Source: a virus
DNA: 31,729 nt
Strand: one strand, 5' to 3'
IMG/VR virus record: IMGVR_UViG_3300029448_000219
Coordinates: 1-31,729 of that record
Shown here: positions 9,276-27,952 of the stretch, one piece after another
Layout of the letters: each line of letters starts with the position of its first letter
Position numbering within the stretch: the stretch's first letter is position 1
The notes under the pieces: model-generated
What the model was told of the DNA's origin: nothing
Databases searched by the model: none
What the model saw: the letters and a program-made list of their open reading frames with translations, nothing else
Made by a program: the position numbers and the translations under genes

Positions 9276-10703
9276 ATGCCATTAGGTATAGCAAGATTAA
9301 ACACATTATCCAAAGTTTTAGCAGAGGAAGTTGATCCAAGAACATTTGATTCAGTGCCAATAACTGTGTCAGGTGATGCTCAAATCAGCACAGCACAATC
9401 AAAGTTTGGAGGATCAAGTATCCTGTTTGATGGCACAGATGATGCTGTGGATCCAGATCACACACTGCTAAACATAGGTTCAGGCGATTTCACTATAGAA
9501 TTTTGGATTTATGTAACAGATTTTACCACTGTGTATGGCAGATACTTTTTTGACACAGGCAGTGGAGTGTCAGGCAGACTGAATGCATTCTTTGATACAG
9601 CAACAACATTCAAAATCAGATCAGGTAACACAGTGCTGTTGTCAGGCAGTCACGGCATGAGCACAAACCAATGGTATCATTTGGCCATTATGAGAGAATC
9701 AGGCACTATACGATTTTATAGAGATGGCACATCATTAGCAAGTGCTTCAAACAGCACAAATTTTACCAACAACGATTACAAGATAGGTTCATATCTCACA
9801 GGCGGAGGATTTGGCGTCATAGGTTATATAGATGAATGGAGACAGTCAGATTCAGCAAGATATTCAGGCACATCATTCACAGTGCCAACCTCAGCATTTG
9901 AACCAGATGTTAACACAAAACTATTGATACATGGTGACGGCGACAACGGAAGCACCAACATTGTAGATGATCCACCTTTCGCACCACATCTTGAAGCAGT
10001 CACATTTGATGGGTCAAACAATTACATGAAACACACATCATCGTCAGGTTGGTCAGATTCAAAACAATTCACAATCTCAATATGGTTTAGAGCAAGTTCT
10101 CTGCATGATGGATTTCTTTTTGACATAGGTAACTCATCAATCACACAATCATCACATCTGTATCTTGAAAGTGATGGAGGCATCATATTGGGATTCAAAG
10201 ATGGAGATAATTCATACAATCAGAAACACACCATCACATCATCTGATTCCGCAAAATACGCCGCAAACACCTGGTATCATCTGTTGGCAAGTGTGAGAAC
10301 AAATAGTTCTGCAACAGCATACTTCTACAAAAATGACACAGTGTCTGATGGCACTTGGTCAGACCATTTCAATTCAAATATTGATTGGACAAGAAATCAA
10401 TACTCAATTGGATCAAAAATTAATGAAGGAAACAAATTTAATGGTGATTTAGGACCCATATGGATAGATAACACATACCTTGATATCACGGTGGAAAGCA
10501 ACAGAAGAAAATTTATTTCAGCATCAGGCACACCAGTGGATCTTGGTAGTGATGGATCAATACCAACAGGATCGCAACCCAAAGTGTATATCAGAGGTGA
10601 GGCCAGTGTTTGGAATTCAGCAGACAACAACAAAGGTTCAACATCAGATTATTCAGAGATAGGTGGAACGATAACAGATTCCAGCAACGAACCTATTGGT
10701 TAA
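9276..10703 (+). CDS. Double LamG (concanavalin-A-like lectin) adhesin
   Basis: 475 residues. Two LamG/Laminin_G_3 domains are visible. The first spans about 38-205, with KFGGSSILFDGTDDAV, FTIEFWIYV, and RFYRDGTSLAS followed by YKIGSY. The second spans about 245-410, with TFDGSNNYMKH, FTISIWFRA, TWYHLLASV and YSIGSK. Such domains bind sugars and are common on phage tails. ATG has AAGGAG 5 bases upstream and lies nine bases after the fibre stop. It likely sits at the fibre tip or as a separate spike. DSAR and DSAK occur but no DSAG. Confidence 0.82.
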   Translation: MPLGIARLNTLSKVLAEEVDPRTFDSVPITVSGDAQISTAQSKFGGSSILFDGTDDAVDPDHTLLNIGSGDFTIEFWIYVTDFTTVYGRYFFDTGSGVSGRLNAFFDTATTFKIRSGNTVLLSGSHGMSTNQWYHLAIMRESGTIRFYRDGTSLASASNSTNFTNNDYKIGSYLTGGGFGVIGYIDEWRQSDSARYSGTSFTVPTSAFEPDVNTKLLIHGDGDNGSTNIVDDPPFAPHLEAVTFDGSNNYMKHTSSSGWSDSKQFTISIWFRASSLHDGFLFDIGNSSITQSSHLYLESDGGIILGFKDGDNSYNQKHTITSSDSAKYAANTWYHLLASVRTNSSATAYFYKNDTVSDGTWSDHFNSNIDWTRNQYSIGSKINEGNKFNGDLGPIWIDNTYLDITVESNRRKFISASGTPVDLGSDGSIPTGSQPKVYIRGEASVWNSADNNKGSTSDYSEIGGTITDSSNEPIG

Positions 10704-13520: not shown

Positions 13521-14752
13521 TGGCACTATCAGTAGCACAAAAAAACATTTGCGATTCAGATGCTAGATTCCGTGTCGCTGTGACAGGAAGAAGATTTGGA
13601 AAAACATTTTGTGCCATGAGAGAATTGGCACGACACGCATCTAAAACAAATCAAGAAGTTTTATATGTGGCACCTTCCTATCGTATGGCAAAATCAATTG
13701 CTTGGGAGGCATTGAAAGACAAATTAAAAAAATTAAGATGGGTAGAACAAACCAACGAAGCAGAATTAACTATTAGATTAAAATCAGGATCAAAAATTTA
13801 TTTAAAAGGTGCGGAGAACAAAGACGCACTCAGAGGTATTGGTTGTGATTTTTTAGTGTTAGATGAGTTTCAAGATTTAGATCCAGAACTTTGGACTGCT
13901 GTATTAAGACCTACTCTTTCAGATAGAAAAGGCAAGGCATTGTTCATTGGTACGCCAAGAGGCATTGGATCAATGAGCCATGAGATGTATGTCATGGCCC
14001 AGAATACAGACGATTGGGCGGCTTTCACTTATCGCACAATTGACGGAGGCATAGTTGGTGAAGATGAAATTGATCAAGCAAAAAGAGACCTAGACACAAA
14101 AACATTTGAACAGGAATACTTGGCAACCTTCAACACTTTCTCAGGCATGGTGTATTACAATTTTGAAAGAGATCATCATGTACAACCTTTGAACAACATC
14201 AACACAGCAGATATACACGCGGGAATGGATTTTGGTTTTACTCCGATGTCGGTTGCTGTGAGTGTGATACAAAACAACGCAATATATTTTGTGGATGAGA
14301 TATCTATCAACAAAACCAACACAGAAGAAATTTGTGATGAATTGAAAAGAAGATATCCAACATCTCGTATCACAATATATCCAGATGCGGCAGGCAGACA
14401 AAGAAAATCATCTGCAGGTGGTAAAACAGACATATCAATACTACAAAATGCAGGATTCAGGGTATGTGCCAAGATGGCCAATCCTCCTATAAGAGACAGA
14501 GTAAATGCTGTAAATAGCAAGTTAAAGAATGCTCAAGGATTGAGAACAATATTCATTGATCCTAAATGCAAACAAATTATAAAGAGTTTAGAATCAATGC
14601 AGTACAAACCAAATTCATCAATCATAGACAACAACGAAAACACACACATGGCAGATGCTGTAGGTTATCTTGTGGATTATCTATATCCTATCAAGAGACA
14701 GATCGAAAGCAAGAAAAACCAAAGATGGGTGTTTGGAAAGGGGATTAACTAA
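13520..14752 (+). CDS. terL: Terminase large subunit
   Basis: 410 residues. It packages DNA using an N-terminal ATPase and a C-terminal nuclease. Walker A is TGRRFGKT at 22-29; Walker B with catalytic Glu is FLVLDE at 111-116; the coupling motif is LFIGTPRG near 145-152. The nuclease domain shows acidic sites in HAGMDFGFTP, TIYPDAAG and THMADAVGYL, as in RNase H-like Terminase_6 enzymes. ATG 13520 follows GGGAGG and overlaps the small subunit stop; an in-frame start at 13508 is less likely. It overlaps the portal gene by one base. Confidence 0.95.
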   Translation: MALSVAQKNICDSDARFRVAVTGRRFGKTFCAMRELARHASKTNQEVLYVAPSYRMAKSIAWEALKDKLKKLRWVEQTNEAELTIRLKSGSKIYLKGAENKDALRGIGCDFLVLDEFQDLDPELWTAVLRPTLSDRKGKALFIGTPRGIGSMSHEMYVMAQNTDDWAAFTYRTIDGGIVGEDEIDQAKRDLDTKTFEQEYLATFNTFSGMVYYNFERDHHVQPLNNINTADIHAGMDFGFTPMSVAVSVIQNNAIYFVDEISINKTNTEEICDELKRRYPTSRITIYPDAAGRQRKSSAGGKTDISILQNAGFRVCAKMANPPIRDRVNAVNSKLKNAQGLRTIFIDPKCKQIIKSLESMQYKPNSSIIDNNENTHMADAVGYLVDYLYPIKRQIESKKNQRWVFGKGIN

Positions 14753-16290
14753 TGCCGGTTATCAGAGACAAATTAATTAAAGGTGATTCAAGATACGCAA
14801 TAGATTATATCACAGAAGCACACGCGGCATACAAGCATTACATCAATAGATGGACATTCTTGAATGATTCCTACAATGGTGGTTATGATTATTTCATGGG
14901 CAGATATTTAGAGCCTTACTACTACGAGTCTAGAGATGATTACGAAAAAAGATTAAGAATGGTTGCTTTAGACAATCATGCTAAATCCGTGGTTGGCATT
15001 TATACAAGTTTCTTGTTTAGAAAACCTTGTCAAAGAATGTACGGCACACTTGAAAACAATCAAAATTTACAAGCATTCCTAAGAGATGCTGACCTTGATG
15101 GCAGATCTTTTGAATCTTTCATAAAAGATGTAAGCACAATGGCAATGGTGTATGGAAATGCTTGGGTGATTGTTGATAAACCAGAAACACAGGTGAACAC
15201 AAGAGCAGAAGCACTTGAACAAGGCATCAGACCTTATGTTTCATTATTCACACCTGACAATGTGTTGGATTGGAAATATGAAAGACAAGCAAATGGTTCA
15301 TATCAATTGACATATCTAAAAGTTAAAGAAGAAATTATTGAAGACGAACAATTTATTAGAGAATACACAATGGATGAAATCAATGTGTACAAATTGTACG
15401 GCAATGACAAACGAGGAGAATATTTAGAAACAATTCCTAACACACTAGGAAAGATTCCTGCTGTTTGTGTGTATGCACAGAGATCAAACATTCGTGGAGT
15501 AGGAGTAAGCACCATTGGAGATATCTGCGATCAGCAAAAAATGATCTTTGAAGAATATTCAGAGATAGAACAAATTATTAGATTGACAAACCATCCATCA
15601 CTTGTACTAGAAGAAGGTGTTGAAGCATCAGCAGGCGCAGGCGCAATAATCAAAATGACCAGCACAAACGACGCACAGAAAAAACCATACTTGCTACAAC
15701 CAGCAGGTTCGTCAATTGAAAGTGTGCTGTCATCTATACAGAGAAAAGTAGATGCCATAGACAGAATGGCTTGCTTGGGTGGCATAAGATCAGTTGAGTC
15801 AAGAAGATTATCAGGCATAGGATTACAAACAGAATTCCAAATGTTGAATGCTAAACTGGCAGACTTTGCGATGAGTTTAGAACACGCAGAAGAACAGATA
15901 TGGGACATATGGGCACAGTTCGAAGGCACAAAATTTGATGGCAAAGTGAAATATCCAAGATCATTTTCAATACAAGACAAAGTTAATGATGTGTCAATGT
16001 TAAAATTAGCAAAAGAAACTAATCCTACAGATCCTATGACACTTGAAAAGATTGAAAAAATGTTATTGGAAACAATCACAGAAAAACCATATGATGAAGT
16101 AAAACAAGCATATGACGAAGACAAATTAAAAAATAAACCTGCCAAAGACCTTGTACAGCACACACCAATCACTGATGTTAATGACATGGTGGTTCATTTG
16201 AGAGAAATGGTACAAGCAGGATACACAGACGAAGAAATAAAATCATTACATCCAGAATTGGCACAACTATTTTCAAACGAACAAAATTAA
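14752..16290 (+). CDS. Portal protein
   Basis: 512 residues. It forms the ring at one capsid vertex through which DNA passes and onto which the tail connector docks. The central part (NHAKSVVGIYTSFLFRKPCQ...FESFIKDVSTMAMVYGNAWVIVDKP) matches DUF4055/SPP1 gp6-type portals, and the helical C-terminus (LQTEFQMLNAKLADFAMSLEHAEEQIWDIW) matches the stem and crown helices. Size is usual for the family. It starts within the terminase stop (TAATG), which fixes both ends. Confidence 0.88.
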   Translation: MPVIRDKLIKGDSRYAIDYITEAHAAYKHYINRWTFLNDSYNGGYDYFMGRYLEPYYYESRDDYEKRLRMVALDNHAKSVVGIYTSFLFRKPCQRMYGTLENNQNLQAFLRDADLDGRSFESFIKDVSTMAMVYGNAWVIVDKPETQVNTRAEALEQGIRPYVSLFTPDNVLDWKYERQANGSYQLTYLKVKEEIIEDEQFIREYTMDEINVYKLYGNDKRGEYLETIPNTLGKIPAVCVYAQRSNIRGVGVSTIGDICDQQKMIFEEYSEIEQIIRLTNHPSLVLEEGVEASAGAGAIIKMTSTNDAQKKPYLLQPAGSSIESVLSSIQRKVDAIDRMACLGGIRSVESRRLSGIGLQTEFQMLNAKLADFAMSLEHAEEQIWDIWAQFEGTKFDGKVKYPRSFSIQDKVNDVSMLKLAKETNPTDPMTLEKIEKMLLETITEKPYDEVKQAYDEDKLKNKPAKDLVQHTPITDVNDMVVHLREMVQAGYTDEEIKSLHPELAQLFSNEQN

Positions 16291-23651: not shown

Positions 23652-24232
23652 TGACTAGGGAATTTCCAAGCAACTTGCAGACTTATCTAGCAGGCAACAG
23701 TCTTATTGAAGTATTTCTAGTTTCAATTCAAACAACCACGGGCACAAACTATTTTACCTCAGCACCTTATGATATCACATTTGATTCACAAACATATCAA
23801 GCACAAGGTGATTTTTTAACACTGAGTGAAGGACAAGAAACAGCAGAACTACAGATACATTCTGTGAATATAATTTTAAGTGCTGTGGATGTCAGCAATG
23901 TGACCACATATGGTGTCAGCGGCATCATCAACAAAGATGTTGAAATACGCAGAGCATATCTAGATCCAATCACACTGCAATTGCAAGGTGACAGTGCCGG
24001 CGATGCTGTGTTCTTAGCATTCAAAGGCAAGATAGCAGGATATCAAATCACCAACAATGTTAACACAGCGGACATACAACTACAAGTTTCAAGTCAATTC
24101 ATAAACTTTACAAGGAAAGCAGGACGCAGATCCAACCTTGTTAGTTTTCAAAGAGAACATCCAACAGATTTTTCAATGCAGTATTCACACGAAACATTGA
24201 CTGATATCTTTTGGGGTAGAAAAGGAATATAA
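23651..24232 (+). CDS. Minor tail protein, DUF2163-like
   Basis: 193 residues. SLIEVFLVSIQTTTGTNYFTS, then DITFDSQTYQAQGDFLTLSE, and VEIRRAYLDPITLQLQ with KGKIAGYQI match the DUF2163/gp13-type tail-hub proteins of gene transfer agents and siphoviruses. DSAG (QLQGDSAGDAVFLAFKG) sits at a loop where the family, as I know it, is shorter. The C-terminus ends at TDIFWGRKGI. It probably forms part of the hub under the tape measure. Overlaps are TAATG on both sides. Confidence 0.65.
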   Translation: MTREFPSNLQTYLAGNSLIEVFLVSIQTTTGTNYFTSAPYDITFDSQTYQAQGDFLTLSEGQETAELQIHSVNIILSAVDVSNVTTYGVSGIINKDVEIRRAYLDPITLQLQGDSAGDAVFLAFKGKIAGYQITNNVNTADIQLQVSSQFINFTRKAGRRSNLVSFQREHPTDFSMQYSHETLTDIFWGRKGI

Positions 24233-24699
24233 TGATTAGAGAGTGCATGATAGATGACATCAACAAATTGATTGAATGTATTGATCTACTACAATCAGTA
24301 AATGATGTGCCCACATCAAATCAAGTGGACAAAAATTTTCTAATTGAAAATCTTAAAAAAGGCATGGTGTCTCCGCAACACAAAATAGTGGTAAAAGAAA
24401 CTGCAGACAAGATTGTGGCTTTTGCAATTGGTTCAGTGTCACAAAACATACACAACAGCAAAATATATGGAGAAATAACTTATATGTTTGTGCATCCAGA
24501 AATGATGAACCAAACAGTATCACAACAATTGTTTGATCAATTGGTGGAATGGTTTAAAGAACAACAGTGTCAATATCTTATAGCACTGCCCAGCATATGG
24601 AATCAAGATTACACAGCAAACGACACATTAGAAGACATAAAAAAATTTTACACAAACAATTGTAATCTAGTAGGTTACACATTTATAAAAGGACTATAA
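24232..24699 (+). CDS. GNAT-family N-acetyltransferase-like protein
   Basis: 155 residues. N-terminal IRECMIDDINKLIECIDLL matches beta1-alpha1 of GNAT enzymes; KIVAFAIGSVSQ and GEITYMFVHPEMMNQTVSQQ form the central strands and the acetyl-CoA-binding turn, though the usual R/QxxGxG/A is degenerate (MMNQTVSQ). The C-terminal FYTNNCNLVGYTFIKGL matches the last GNAT segment. The catalytic state is uncertain. It lies in the tail-tip row, where many phages encode an NlpC/P60 peptidase. Confidence 0.7.
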   Translation: MIRECMIDDINKLIECIDLLQSVNDVPTSNQVDKNFLIENLKKGMVSPQHKIVVKETADKIVAFAIGSVSQNIHNSKIYGEITYMFVHPEMMNQTVSQQLFDQLVEWFKEQQCQYLIALPSIWNQDYTANDTLEDIKKFYTNNCNLVGYTFIKGL

Positions 24700-25157
24700 T
24701 GCTTGAATGGAGAACAACCACAATTGAAGATTGCGAACAATTGTCGCAAACAATCAATCATACAGATGCACAAGAACTGTATGACGCAACAGGTTTGAAT
24801 CCTTATCAAGGTTTAGTGATGTGCGTAAAATTGTGTCCAGATTGTGAAACAGCAATCAATGAACACAATGAAGTGTTGGCCATCAGAGGCGTACAAAAAT
24901 TAAACACACACGGTATGGTTTGGGCAATTTTGACCAAACAAGCATACACCAAAGCAGGTTTTAAACAAGCAATGCAAGAAACTAAACAATGGGTTGTAAA
25001 TAAAACTGAACAATATAAAAAATTAATGAACTTTGTAAGCGAAGAAAATCAATCGGCAGTTAGATGGTTAAAGTACATAGGATTTTCTATAACAAAAAAA
25101 ATAGATCATTATGGTTATTCAAAAAAACCATTTTTACAATTTGAAAGGGTGTTATAA
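24699..25157 (+). CDS. GNAT-fold protein resembling T7 gp13 (DUF2833)
   Basis: 152 residues. MVWAILTKQAYTKAGFKQAM followed by a helix and NFVSEENQSAVRWLKYIGFS, then FLQFERV, resembles T7 internal virion protein gp13/DUF2833 (a W-x-V/L-T-S/K ... K-x-F-R/K ... N..HIRFL..IGA pattern) and ordinary GNAT enzymes. N-terminal EWRTTTIEDCEQLSQTINH also fits. The resemblance is by eye. The usual R/QxxGxG acetyl-CoA loop is absent. As the second GNAT in a row before the tip protein, it may modify a tail-tip component or be a structural leftover. Confidence 0.6.
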   Translation: MLEWRTTTIEDCEQLSQTINHTDAQELYDATGLNPYQGLVMCVKLCPDCETAINEHNEVLAIRGVQKLNTHGMVWAILTKQAYTKAGFKQAMQETKQWVVNKTEQYKKLMNFVSEENQSAVRWLKYIGFSITKKIDHYGYSKKPFLQFERVL

Positions 25158-27952
25158 TGTGTATATGTTGTTTTGATGCAGATACAGAAATAAAATTATC
25201 CAACGGTGAAGTCAAAAAGATAAAAGACATCAAACCGGGTGATCAAGTGTTGGGTATGGATAAAAAAGTGAACACTGTAAAAAAGGTTGAAAAACCTATC
25301 ATCCATTTTAGAAATTTATATTCAATAAATGACACAAAACCATTCACAACAGCAGAACATCCTTTTAAGACACCACAAGGTTGGAGCAGTATAAAAAACA
25401 ATCGCAGTTTGTTTGATGCTGACACATGGGCAAACTTTTTTGAAAAGTTTTCTAAAAATTGTAAAAAAATATTGCCAGGCACAGTCCTAATCAATGACAA
25501 ACAAGGCAAAGTAAAGGTAGAAAAAATTACACCACACAAACGATGGAAAGACTTTTTCAAATCAGTTTACAATTTACAACTGGACGGTAATAACACATTC
25601 TACGCCAACAATTATCTTGTACACAACAAAGGCGGTGGTGGTACCATAGGTAAAATTATTGGTGGAGTGGTCAAAGTGTTCAAAAAAACTGTGGGTAAAA
25701 TATTTGATTTCATAGGTGATGTGATTGGCTTTGTGTTCAAACCATTTGGTATCCCAGACATTCCAGATTTTTCAGCAGAAAATTCTGCATCAGGTGTAAA
25801 ACTGCAAAAACCAGGAACCAATGTGGGTTTCCCAGTGGTGTATGGTTTTAGAAGAGTAGGTTCAGTGCCTGTGTATGCAGAAACAAATGGTTCAGACAAT
25901 CAAGATTTATATGTGGTGTATGCCATATGTGAAGGAGAAATAGAAGGCATCAGAAACATCAAAGTGGATGGCAACTCAATTGGCAATTCAACTGCTGTCT
26001 ACACAGCAGGACAAGAACTGAATGCAGGTTATCCTTATGATGGCGGCAGAATGGTGTTTCAATGTTTCAACGGCACAGAAAATCAAACACAATCCTCATT
26101 GATGTCCGGATCTGCAAGTTGGGGCAACAAACAGAGAACACTGCCAGGACTAGCATATGTGGCGGCAAGATTTAGATGGATAGCAAGTGATCAAACAGAA
26201 TCAGATCGTAATCCTTTTGGTGGCGGTATTCCTGCACTTGAATTTGATGTGTATGGCAAAAAAGTTTATGATTTAGCCACACACTCAGGAGGTTTAGACC
26301 TTGCAAATGATTATGCCAATCTAACAAAAACCTATTCAACCAACCCTGCCAATTGTTTGTTGGATATATTAATGAATCCAAGATATGGAGCAGGCTATGA
26401 CAAGAGTTTTATCAATGCAGATTCATTCAAAACAGTGGCTACCAAATTAAATCAAACAGTGGTGCATGATGCCAATGATCCTGCCAATTCCACAGCAAAA
26501 ATTATAACTTGTAATGGTGTGTTGAACACAGAATCAGAAATATTACAAAATGTAAAAAAGATTTTATCAGGTTGCAGAACCATGATGCCATTTGTTGAAG
26601 GTAGATACAAATTAAAAGTTGAAGATGGAGGTCATCCTACAGACATCACTTCAAGCACAGTGGCTATTGCATTTGATGTCACAGCAGATCATATTGTGGG
26701 TGCAATTAATCTTTCAGGTGAATCAAAAGAATCCAAATACAATCAGGTCTTGGTGAATTACATAGACCCAGATGAAGAATTTTCATCACAGCAAGAATTT
26801 TTCAATACCACAGGAGATTTAGCAATAGATGACAATGAAACACTCACAGGTGAATTTACATTTGACACCATGACCAACAGAGCGATGGCCAAAGACTTTG
26901 CTAGACTGATCTATCAAAAATCAAGAAATCAAAGAACCATAGCATTCAGTGCCACGCAAGAATTAATGAATGTGGAAGTGGGTGATGTGATCAGAGTGAC
27001 AGATACTGTGCTCAATCTTAATCAAGCCACATTTAGAGTGGTAGCAATGACATTGCAAAATGACAGCACAGTGAGATTAGAAGGTGTAGAACATGATGCC
27101 ACAATATATCCACACATATCAACACCACAAAAAGAAATTGCACCACAAATATTCAAACCCAACACAGTGTACAACTATGTGAGAACAGCATCACAAAATG
27201 CCGCTCCAGAAAATTACAACAACGGTACTACATCAGCACCACCTCTACTGACTTATCAATTGGCACCACAGGTAAACGAGTATTCAACAGCAACCACAGG
27301 CGCTGGACCCGGCAATGTCACTTTGCCAAATACTCATCAATTGGTAGATCAAGATTCATTTGTGCTACAACACAAGGATACATCCAAAAGAATACTGTTT
27401 GGAGGTGCCATAGACATTCAAACCAATCAAGGATACAGACCAATTGCCTACAACAACACCCAAGTCACAAGAGCCTTAAATATGCAGTTGTTTGTGTCAC
27501 CACCTAAAGGGTTTTTACAATTTGAAATGGTGATTGACATTTTTCAAAATCAGAAACGATTAACAACCATTAGAAATTCTATTGCAGTAACGAACGCAAC
27601 ATCACAAAGTCCGGGTGGAGGAATTTTCGGAACACCTCAAATACAAGTTCCTGTCACAAGAATAGATATGACGCCTATTATTGTTCCTCTTCATCCTGCG
27701 TTCAGTTATCAAATCAGATACAAAAATTCAACTGCAGGACAAAGTTATGTTGTGTTGGGTGACACCAACACATGGTCAGGTTTTACCAATCATCAATACA
27801 AAGTTAATGGCAAAGAATTTATAGACACAGGATTGGAAGGCATGGTGAACTATGTGGCCAACAATTATGCAATCAGTGTGGCACAATTTCCAAATGGATC
27901 AAACTTTGTTGCCAAAACAGGTGGAAGTGTGAACATGGGAGGTACACCATAA
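25157..27952 (+). CDS. Central tail tip (TipJ-like) protein with N-terminal Hint domain
   Basis: 931 residues. Residues 5-157 form a Hint/intein-like domain (see the separate entry). After it come KGGGGTIGKIIGGVVKVFKK and FVFKPFGIPDIPDFSA, then a tip-protein core: GTNVGFPVVYGFRRVGSVPV, YVVYAICEGEIEGIRNIKVD, and RARFRW/ANCLLDILMNPRYGAGY, as in lambda J and TipJ-type proteins. The C-terminal half is beta-rich with fibronectin-like patches. J-like proteins normally begin M-G-K-G-rich, so cleavage after residue 157 would give a normal-looking N-terminus KGGGG. It binds the receptor or hub at the tail end. TAATG joins it to neighbours. Confidence 0.82.
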   Translation: MCICCFDADTEIKLSNGEVKKIKDIKPGDQVLGMDKKVNTVKKVEKPIIHFRNLYSINDTKPFTTAEHPFKTPQGWSSIKNNRSLFDADTWANFFEKFSKNCKKILPGTVLINDKQGKVKVEKITPHKRWKDFFKSVYNLQLDGNNTFYANNYLVHNKGGGGTIGKIIGGVVKVFKKTVGKIFDFIGDVIGFVFKPFGIPDIPDFSAENSASGVKLQKPGTNVGFPVVYGFRRVGSVPVYAETNGSDNQDLYVVYAICEGEIEGIRNIKVDGNSIGNSTAVYTAGQELNAGYPYDGGRMVFQCFNGTENQTQSSLMSGSASWGNKQRTLPGLAYVAARFRWIASDQTESDRNPFGGGIPALEFDVYGKKVYDLATHSGGLDLANDYANLTKTYSTNPANCLLDILMNPRYGAGYDKSFINADSFKTVATKLNQTVVHDANDPANSTAKIITCNGVLNTESEILQNVKKILSGCRTMMPFVEGRYKLKVEDGGHPTDITSSTVAIAFDVTADHIVGAINLSGESKESKYNQVLVNYIDPDEEFSSQQEFFNTTGDLAIDDNETLTGEFTFDTMTNRAMAKDFARLIYQKSRNQRTIAFSATQELMNVEVGDVIRVTDTVLNLNQATFRVVAMTLQNDSTVRLEGVEHDATIYPHISTPQKEIAPQIFKPNTVYNYVRTASQNAAPENYNNGTTSAPPLLTYQLAPQVNEYSTATTGAGPGNVTLPNTHQLVDQDSFVLQHKDTSKRILFGGAIDIQTNQGYRPIAYNNTQVTRALNMQLFVSPPKGFLQFEMVIDIFQNQKRLTTIRNSIAVTNATSQSPGGGIFGTPQIQVPVTRIDMTPIIVPLHPAFSYQIRYKNSTAGQSYVVLGDTNTWSGFTNHQYKVNGKEFIDTGLEGMVNYVANNYAISVAQFPNGSNFVAKTGGSVNMGGTP
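25169..25627 (+). other. Hint domain (intein-like, probably self-cleaving) in the tail-tip gene
   Basis: Block A: CFDADTEIKLSNGEVKKIKD, with Cys5 as the first residue of the domain. Block B: TTAEHPFKTPQGW, holding the TxxH site. C-terminal blocks: FYANNYLVHNK, with His156-Asn157 as the cyclising pair. The residue after Asn is Lys, not Cys, Ser or Thr, so full splicing is not expected. Only MCIC precedes Cys5. C-terminal cleavage at Asn157/Lys158 (nt 25627/25628) is the most likely reaction, as in bacterial intein-like (BIL) domains. About 153 residues, a usual mini-Hint size with no homing endonuclease. Confidence 0.8.

Follow-up and report, generated by a model that had tools for sequence, protein, structure and literature searches.

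A-type bacterial intein-like (BIL) domains, such as that of Clostridium thermocellum (PDB 2lwy), share with the domain reported here Cys1, a TxxH motif, a final His-Asn and a non-nucleophilic +1 residue, and both are small and carry no endonuclease. According to reviews, however, the host proteins of the reported BILs are variable or secreted proteins of bacteria. Our domain instead occupies the very N-terminus of a structural protein of a phage, the tail tip, where it stands at the native start site behind an N-flank of one to four residues. Mini-inteins such as gp41-1 and DnaB have the same fold and catalytic residues. In contrast to them, the domain lacks a +1 Cys, Ser or Thr as well as a conserved N-extein, and it is inserted at residue 1 instead of in an active site. 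The Hedgehog autoprocessing domain and Vint also have the Hint fold, and Vint is the best Pfam match over the N-terminal part of the tip ORF (1.9e-7, followed by Hint at 3.5e-7, with Intein_splicing also among the matches). Hedgehog uses only the N-terminal thioester step, while the type described here conserves His-Asn at the C-terminal junction.

Lambda gpJ (TipJ) is the reference for the remainder of the protein, which belongs to the same family (phrog_31) and follows the same order of tape measure, distal tail, hub and tip. Unlike our protein, lambda-type tips and most relatives have no Hint; their sequence opens at once with a short N-terminal stretch that is Gly-rich or amphipathic. The gp13-gp14 pair of T7 resembles the locus in that a gp13-like gene immediately precedes a gene whose product starts with Met-Cys. 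The T7 product is a podovirus ejection protein, whereas ours is a Hint-tail-tip fusion among siphophage-type tail genes.

The window, that is the whole stretch of DNA that was analysed, is a 31,729-base IMG/VR virus record from an uncultured environmental phage and is possibly a fragment. The tip ORF (25157-27952, + strand, 931 aa) starts with ATG, has AAAGGG upstream and encodes a complete Hint domain fused to a lambda-J-like tail-tip protein; before it lie genes for the tape measure, distal tail, hub, a GNAT protein and a T7 gp13-like protein. Further upstream, 9276-10703 encodes a Laminin-G/concanavalin-like lectin protein (1.6e-23), ahead of an SPP1-type portal gene at 14752-16290. The features of the locus are as follows.

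24232..24699, + strand: GNAT gene (phrog_1249), found in nearly all relatives with or without a Hint
24699..25157, + strand: T7 gp13-like (phrog_308) GNAT-fold gene, linked to and exchanged with the window's Hint type
25157..25168, + strand: N-flank Met-Cys-Ile-Cys before the Hint; relatives have MCC or MC, and the Cys at position 2 is invariant in this type
25169..25627, + strand: BIL/Hint domain, Cys5 to Asn157 (Pfam Vint/Hint, PDB 2lwy profile match, AlphaFold model, Foldseek)
25349..25360, + strand: block B, T65-A-E-H68, with T65 and H68 invariant in 53 diverse relatives
25622..25627, + strand: His156-Asn157, predicted C-terminal scission dyad, retained by 70/70 N-terminal Hints
25628..25642, + strand: K158-GGGG, predicted new N-terminus of the tip, matching the start of Hint-free relatives
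25643..25735, + strand: cationic, strongly amphipathic segment TIGKIIGGVVKVFKKTVGKIFDFIGDVIGFV at the start of the predicted mature tip, with the top hydrophobic moment in the tip body and a low-confidence helix in the models; similar segments open Hint-free relatives
25628..27952, + strand: tail-tip body (lambda-J-like hub), residues 158-931 plus stop (phrog_31 9e-46, Phage-tail_3 1e-8)

The translation reads MCIC, C5FDADTEIKL, FTT65AEH68, YLVH156N157 and K158GGGGTIGK, with the Cys5 codon at 25169-25171 and the K158 codon at 25628-25630. This confirms the original prediction in placing Cys5, TxxH and His156-Asn157, in noting Lys at residue 158 and in describing the N-terminal flank as just MCIC. 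Its assignment of the ORF to a tail-tip protein also held: residues beyond about 208 match tail-tip families, with central tail fibre J (phrog_31, 9.3e-46) as the best and Phage-tail_3 at 1e-8, and the gene lies after the hub gene, in synteny with more than 60 relatives.

When a profile of 53 relatives was compared with the PDB, the BIL domain 2lwy was the top match (6.4e-24), aligned from block A, just after Cys1, to the final His-Asn; the gp41-1 intein and Tetrahymena BIL2 came next. In an AlphaFold model of residues 1-205 the pLDDT of the domain was mostly above 90, and Foldseek returned BIL2 (6y75), the gp41-1 intein, DnaB mini-inteins and 2lwy. A low-confidence stretch (residues 159-221) connects the domain to the remainder in the full-length model. 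The Hint fold with blocks A, B, F and G was thus found by Pfam, PDB profile, model and Foldseek alike. From profile and model comparisons the domain is closest to BIL domains, having Cys at position 1, TxxH, C-terminal His-Asn and, after the last Asn, the non-nucleophilic K158. We call it BIL-like, in a new context, because the host is a phage tail-tip protein and not a variable bacterial protein. An ordinary class 1 intein is ruled out, as there is no +1 nucleophile (K158; 0/69 relatives) and no N-extein; moreover, no conserved host sequence is interrupted, with just one to four residues preceding the domain. A polymorphic-toxin (PT-HINT) reading was rejected since the downstream part is a tail-tip protein and not a toxin.

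Our initial DNA pattern, VHNxGGGG, was selected on His-Asn and revealed the architecture as common. Three scans were blind to His-Asn (tip-body patterns, MCCFxxDT starts and GGGCFxxDT starts) and were followed by an HMM over all ORFs. Among the matches listed from these blind searches, 70/70 N-terminal Hints that reach this position have His-Asn, in a sample of related, redundant metagenomic contigs that do not represent independent events. The 71 N-terminal Hints longer than 110 residues form 14 clusters at 70% identity and five at 50%. One locus listed without His-Asn (L208) and one Hint flagged as truncated both end at the contig end. It had been proposed that homologues keeping the domain while losing His-Asn would speak against the reading, and none was found in the blind scans. 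In 69 readable cases the following residue is Ala (58), Lys (9) or Gly (2), and never Cys, Ser or Thr. By comparison, internal Hints of other phage proteins have lost His-Asn several times (L237, L259, L297). Across 53 relatives of 25-78% identity, a set partly selected on His-Asn, the invariant columns include Cys5, T65, H68, H156 and N157. The dN/dS of the Hint is 0.07-0.31, so the domain is maintained by purifying selection and not decaying, and this value together with the full catalytic retention rules out a degenerate intein remnant. C-terminal scission at Asn157 is therefore a prediction well supported by sequence.

The distance from the predicted cut (His-Asn) to the FxGD motif is 25-27 aa (n=7), compared with 20-29 aa from the start Met in Hint-free relatives (median 26, one outlier at 47, n=31). 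The predicted cut point coincides with the start of the Hint-free proteins, in agreement with the earlier suggestion that a product beginning KGGGG lies near the normal start of tip proteins. Hint-free members of the window's tip family start directly with MGG.. or MS.., and the nearest named relative, phage DSL-LC06 (46% identical), with MSKVLGKIFK. A second, commoner tip lineage has a Gly leader, Hint and HN followed by AGLGPNIAGAGGGG, and its Hint-free counterpart, marine virus AG-345-A17, starts MTDAPKNIIGSGGGG. Because the Hint-free relatives of both lineages begin at the junction, the residue after Asn takes the place of the start Met in two tip lineages. The most common class (many of L214-L321) reads M..I.G[AS]GGGG-Hint-HN-AGLG..I.G[AS]GGGG-TipJ, the leader being apparently duplicated on either side of the Hint. 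The codons immediately preceding Asn157 in the window include no ATG, GTG or TTG. Translation of the tip from a start of its own at the junction, bypassing the Hint, was therefore rejected.

On balance, the sequence comparisons lead us to favour the view that the N-terminal 157 residues are an active BIL Hint and serve the tail-tip protein as a pro-domain that removes itself. Once the domain has folded, His156 would assist cyclisation of Asn157, and the Asn157-Lys158 bond would break to give a free tip starting KGGGG, with the N-terminal length of the tips of Hint-free relatives. Cys5, T65 and H68 may be retained since the thioester step is coupled to Asn cyclisation in the Hint fold, or since some molecules ligate. 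The cut product would presumably be the species that is assembled, and the benefit would be that the N-terminus of the tip is unavailable until the protein has folded. It is plausible that the domain keeps the tip inactive or blocks early assembly, and delayed freeing of the amphipathic tip N-terminus would likewise be a plausible benefit. In the lambda tail-tip structure, the HDII domain of gpJ belongs to the last tail ring (PMC10721106); we infer that three uncut 17-kDa Hint domains in this ring would be awkward. Some observations count against a pro-domain: Cys5 is invariant although C-terminal cleavage alone would not need it, and Hint-free relatives manage without the domain, so that any regulatory benefit is only putative.

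The last base of the gene at 24699-25157 is the A of the tip ORF's ATG. Its product matches phrog_308 (7e-26) and PF11090 (26.7 bits against a 25-bit cut-off), which assigns it to the T7 gp13-like family. A gp13-like gene lies directly upstream in 12/12 distinct Met-Cys(-x)(-Cys) Hints with upstream sequence. By contrast, about 85 N-terminal Hints of other types and about 66 Hint-free relatives have no gp13-like neighbour; nearly all of these relatives retain the other GNAT gene. That gene (phrog_1249) is not specific to the Hint, because nearly all relatives carry it with or without the domain. At 70% identity the 11 complete Met-Cys Hints fall into four clusters, and the bodies attached to them into four that are less than 50% identical. 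The Met-Cys Hint type and the gp13-like gene are exchanged together.

In a search for gp13-like proteins made without reference to the Hint, the product of the following gene was in some cases a Met-Cys Hint and in the majority a gp14-like protein that begins with Met-Cys. Among 15 diverse cultured phages including T7, the product of the gene after the gp13-like one starts Met-Cys in 13, compared with 0/14 for the second gene after it and a rough baseline of 4%; the binomial value of 1e-16 is optimistic, as the phages are related. In T7 (L367 308-1319) the gp14 that follows gp13 starts MCWAAAI; the other cultured loci are L368-L381. Exceptions to the Met-Cys start were Acinetobacter phage 4316, Pseudomonas phage FBPa19 and the environmental loci L339, L344 and L345. 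As the adjoining gene product starts Met-Cys in these cultured phages and in most environmental loci, we propose, with low confidence, that gp13-like proteins may act on N-terminal Cys. We found no description of such an action in the literature searched, nor a described activity of T7 gp13 in the papers searched. A modification cassette, in which the gp13-like GNAT modifies the N-terminal Cys of its neighbour, the BIL ligates or releases this piece and the tip N-terminus is processed and possibly acylated, is quite unlikely; its substrates would be gp14-like ejection proteins in podoviruses and the MC(I)C flank of the BIL in the window.

That Met-Cys is invariant at the start and that a gp13-like gene is linked to it suggests a role for the short N-flank, which makes ligation possible. 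The alternative that survives best is a nucleophile-independent BIL splicing: the alpha-amine of Lys158 freed by the Asn157 cut would attack the thioester at Cys5, and the tip would gain a Cys-rich flank (CIC, CC or C); the flank may first be modified by the gp13-like GNAT, the Hint then attaching a tagged Cys peptide to the tip. Besides the invariant Cys5, the 12/12 linkage (none of about 85 others) and the 13/15 Met-Cys neighbours in cultured phages, it is favoured by references in PMC7664689 and PMC5874633 that report BIL ligation without a side-chain nucleophile. Nevertheless, we regard splicing as unlikely, since the +1 residues are not nucleophiles and some N-flanks are just Met-Cys, leaving a single residue if Met is removed. 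Moreover, ligation in the Gly-leader lineage would join two leaders. Cleavage is favoured over ligation, as far as the sequences tell, because the flank can be one residue and cleavage alone restores the normal start in that lineage. The original prediction of a tip released and not spliced thus stands for the scission, given 70/70 His-Asn and a predicted cut at the native start, but not for cleavage as the only reaction, since BIL domains without a +1 nucleophile have been reported to cleave as well as to ligate (PMC7664689, PMC7765530, PMC5874633). With an N-flank of one to four residues, the cleaved and spliced products of the window would differ by at most MCIC.

It is improbable that no peptide bond is cut and that the tip keeps the Hint for a structural or binding function. 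Hint folds without His-Asn do occur in phage proteins; here, however, both catalytic halves are fully kept, with the His-Asn loss of internal Hints absent from all 70, and the junction lies exactly at the native start.

The Hint-TipJ architecture is widespread in IMG/VR: the search beyond the window that had been suggested recovered it in many environmental phages and several tip lineages. Within the window's tip family the tip-body scan gave at least 80 loci, about 10 of them with a Hint, which is absent from most relatives. With three Hint types as tblastn queries, no Hint-tip fusion was found in GenBank phages; most matches were inteins, or Hints belonging to replication proteins or to others that are not tips. 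The Hint-free tip homologues inspected contained none, and when bacterial genomes were scanned with another Hint-TipJ the single match was a metagenome-assembled contig. None of the papers that could be searched describes this architecture.

The Hint is exchanged independently of the tip body. L063 is 81% identical to the window in the body and 39% in the Hint, and L030 and L094 have bodies that are 60% identical but Hints of only 40% identity. The window and L129 share about 94% identity on either side of a block of 54-80%; this block spans the gp13-like gene together with the greater part of the Hint, and its end falls within the last block of the Hint. Synonymous divergence (dS) is 0.20 for the body but 0.96 for the Hint. 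A self-removing passenger without benefit could spread by recombination via the conserved C-terminal block and the Gly-rich linker, and would retain its catalysis solely to avoid a defective, uncut tip. The conserved residues would then be no different, and such a passenger is consistent with this exchange (L063, L129) and with the lack of a Hint in most relatives, but the lack of a homing endonuclease or other drive, the recurrence in several tip lineages and the joint exchange with a specific gene make it very unlikely.

Hints were also seen in other arrangements. Of the Hints found, that of L111 comes closest (56%) to the one swapped into L063. In L016, L056, L066, L111 and L118 a Hint followed by KGGGG lies inside long phage proteins; downstream of the Hint, those of L066, L111 and L118 have similar C-terminal segments of the VICT/IICT type. 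L073, L101, L093, L050 and L066 have tandem Hints in single phage ORFs (three in L093), joined by short, mostly Gly-rich linkers; most end in His-Asn, followed by Lys, Gly or Cys. In L223, L258, L262 and L266 the ORFs are about 370-390 aa long and have a Gly tract followed, close to the C-terminus, by a VHN-bearing Hint; in L223 and L262 the ORF opens with a part that resembles the hub protein, whose gene precedes the tip gene. In Achromobacter phage 2-1 (L008 2083-3525), a neighbour of the tip gene has a C-terminal Hint without His-Asn, preceded by the Cys-rich run CNCDCNCSC.

If the predicted cut takes place, a large group of phage structural proteins would owe their maturation to a built-in intein-like domain and not to a protease, and this in the tail part from which assembly nucleates and which contacts the host. 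BIL domains would thereby gain a biological role that is testable in the virion. Moreover, the gp13-like gene travelling with the Hint, together with the Met-Cys rule in T7-like phages, points to a testable substrate for T7 gp13.
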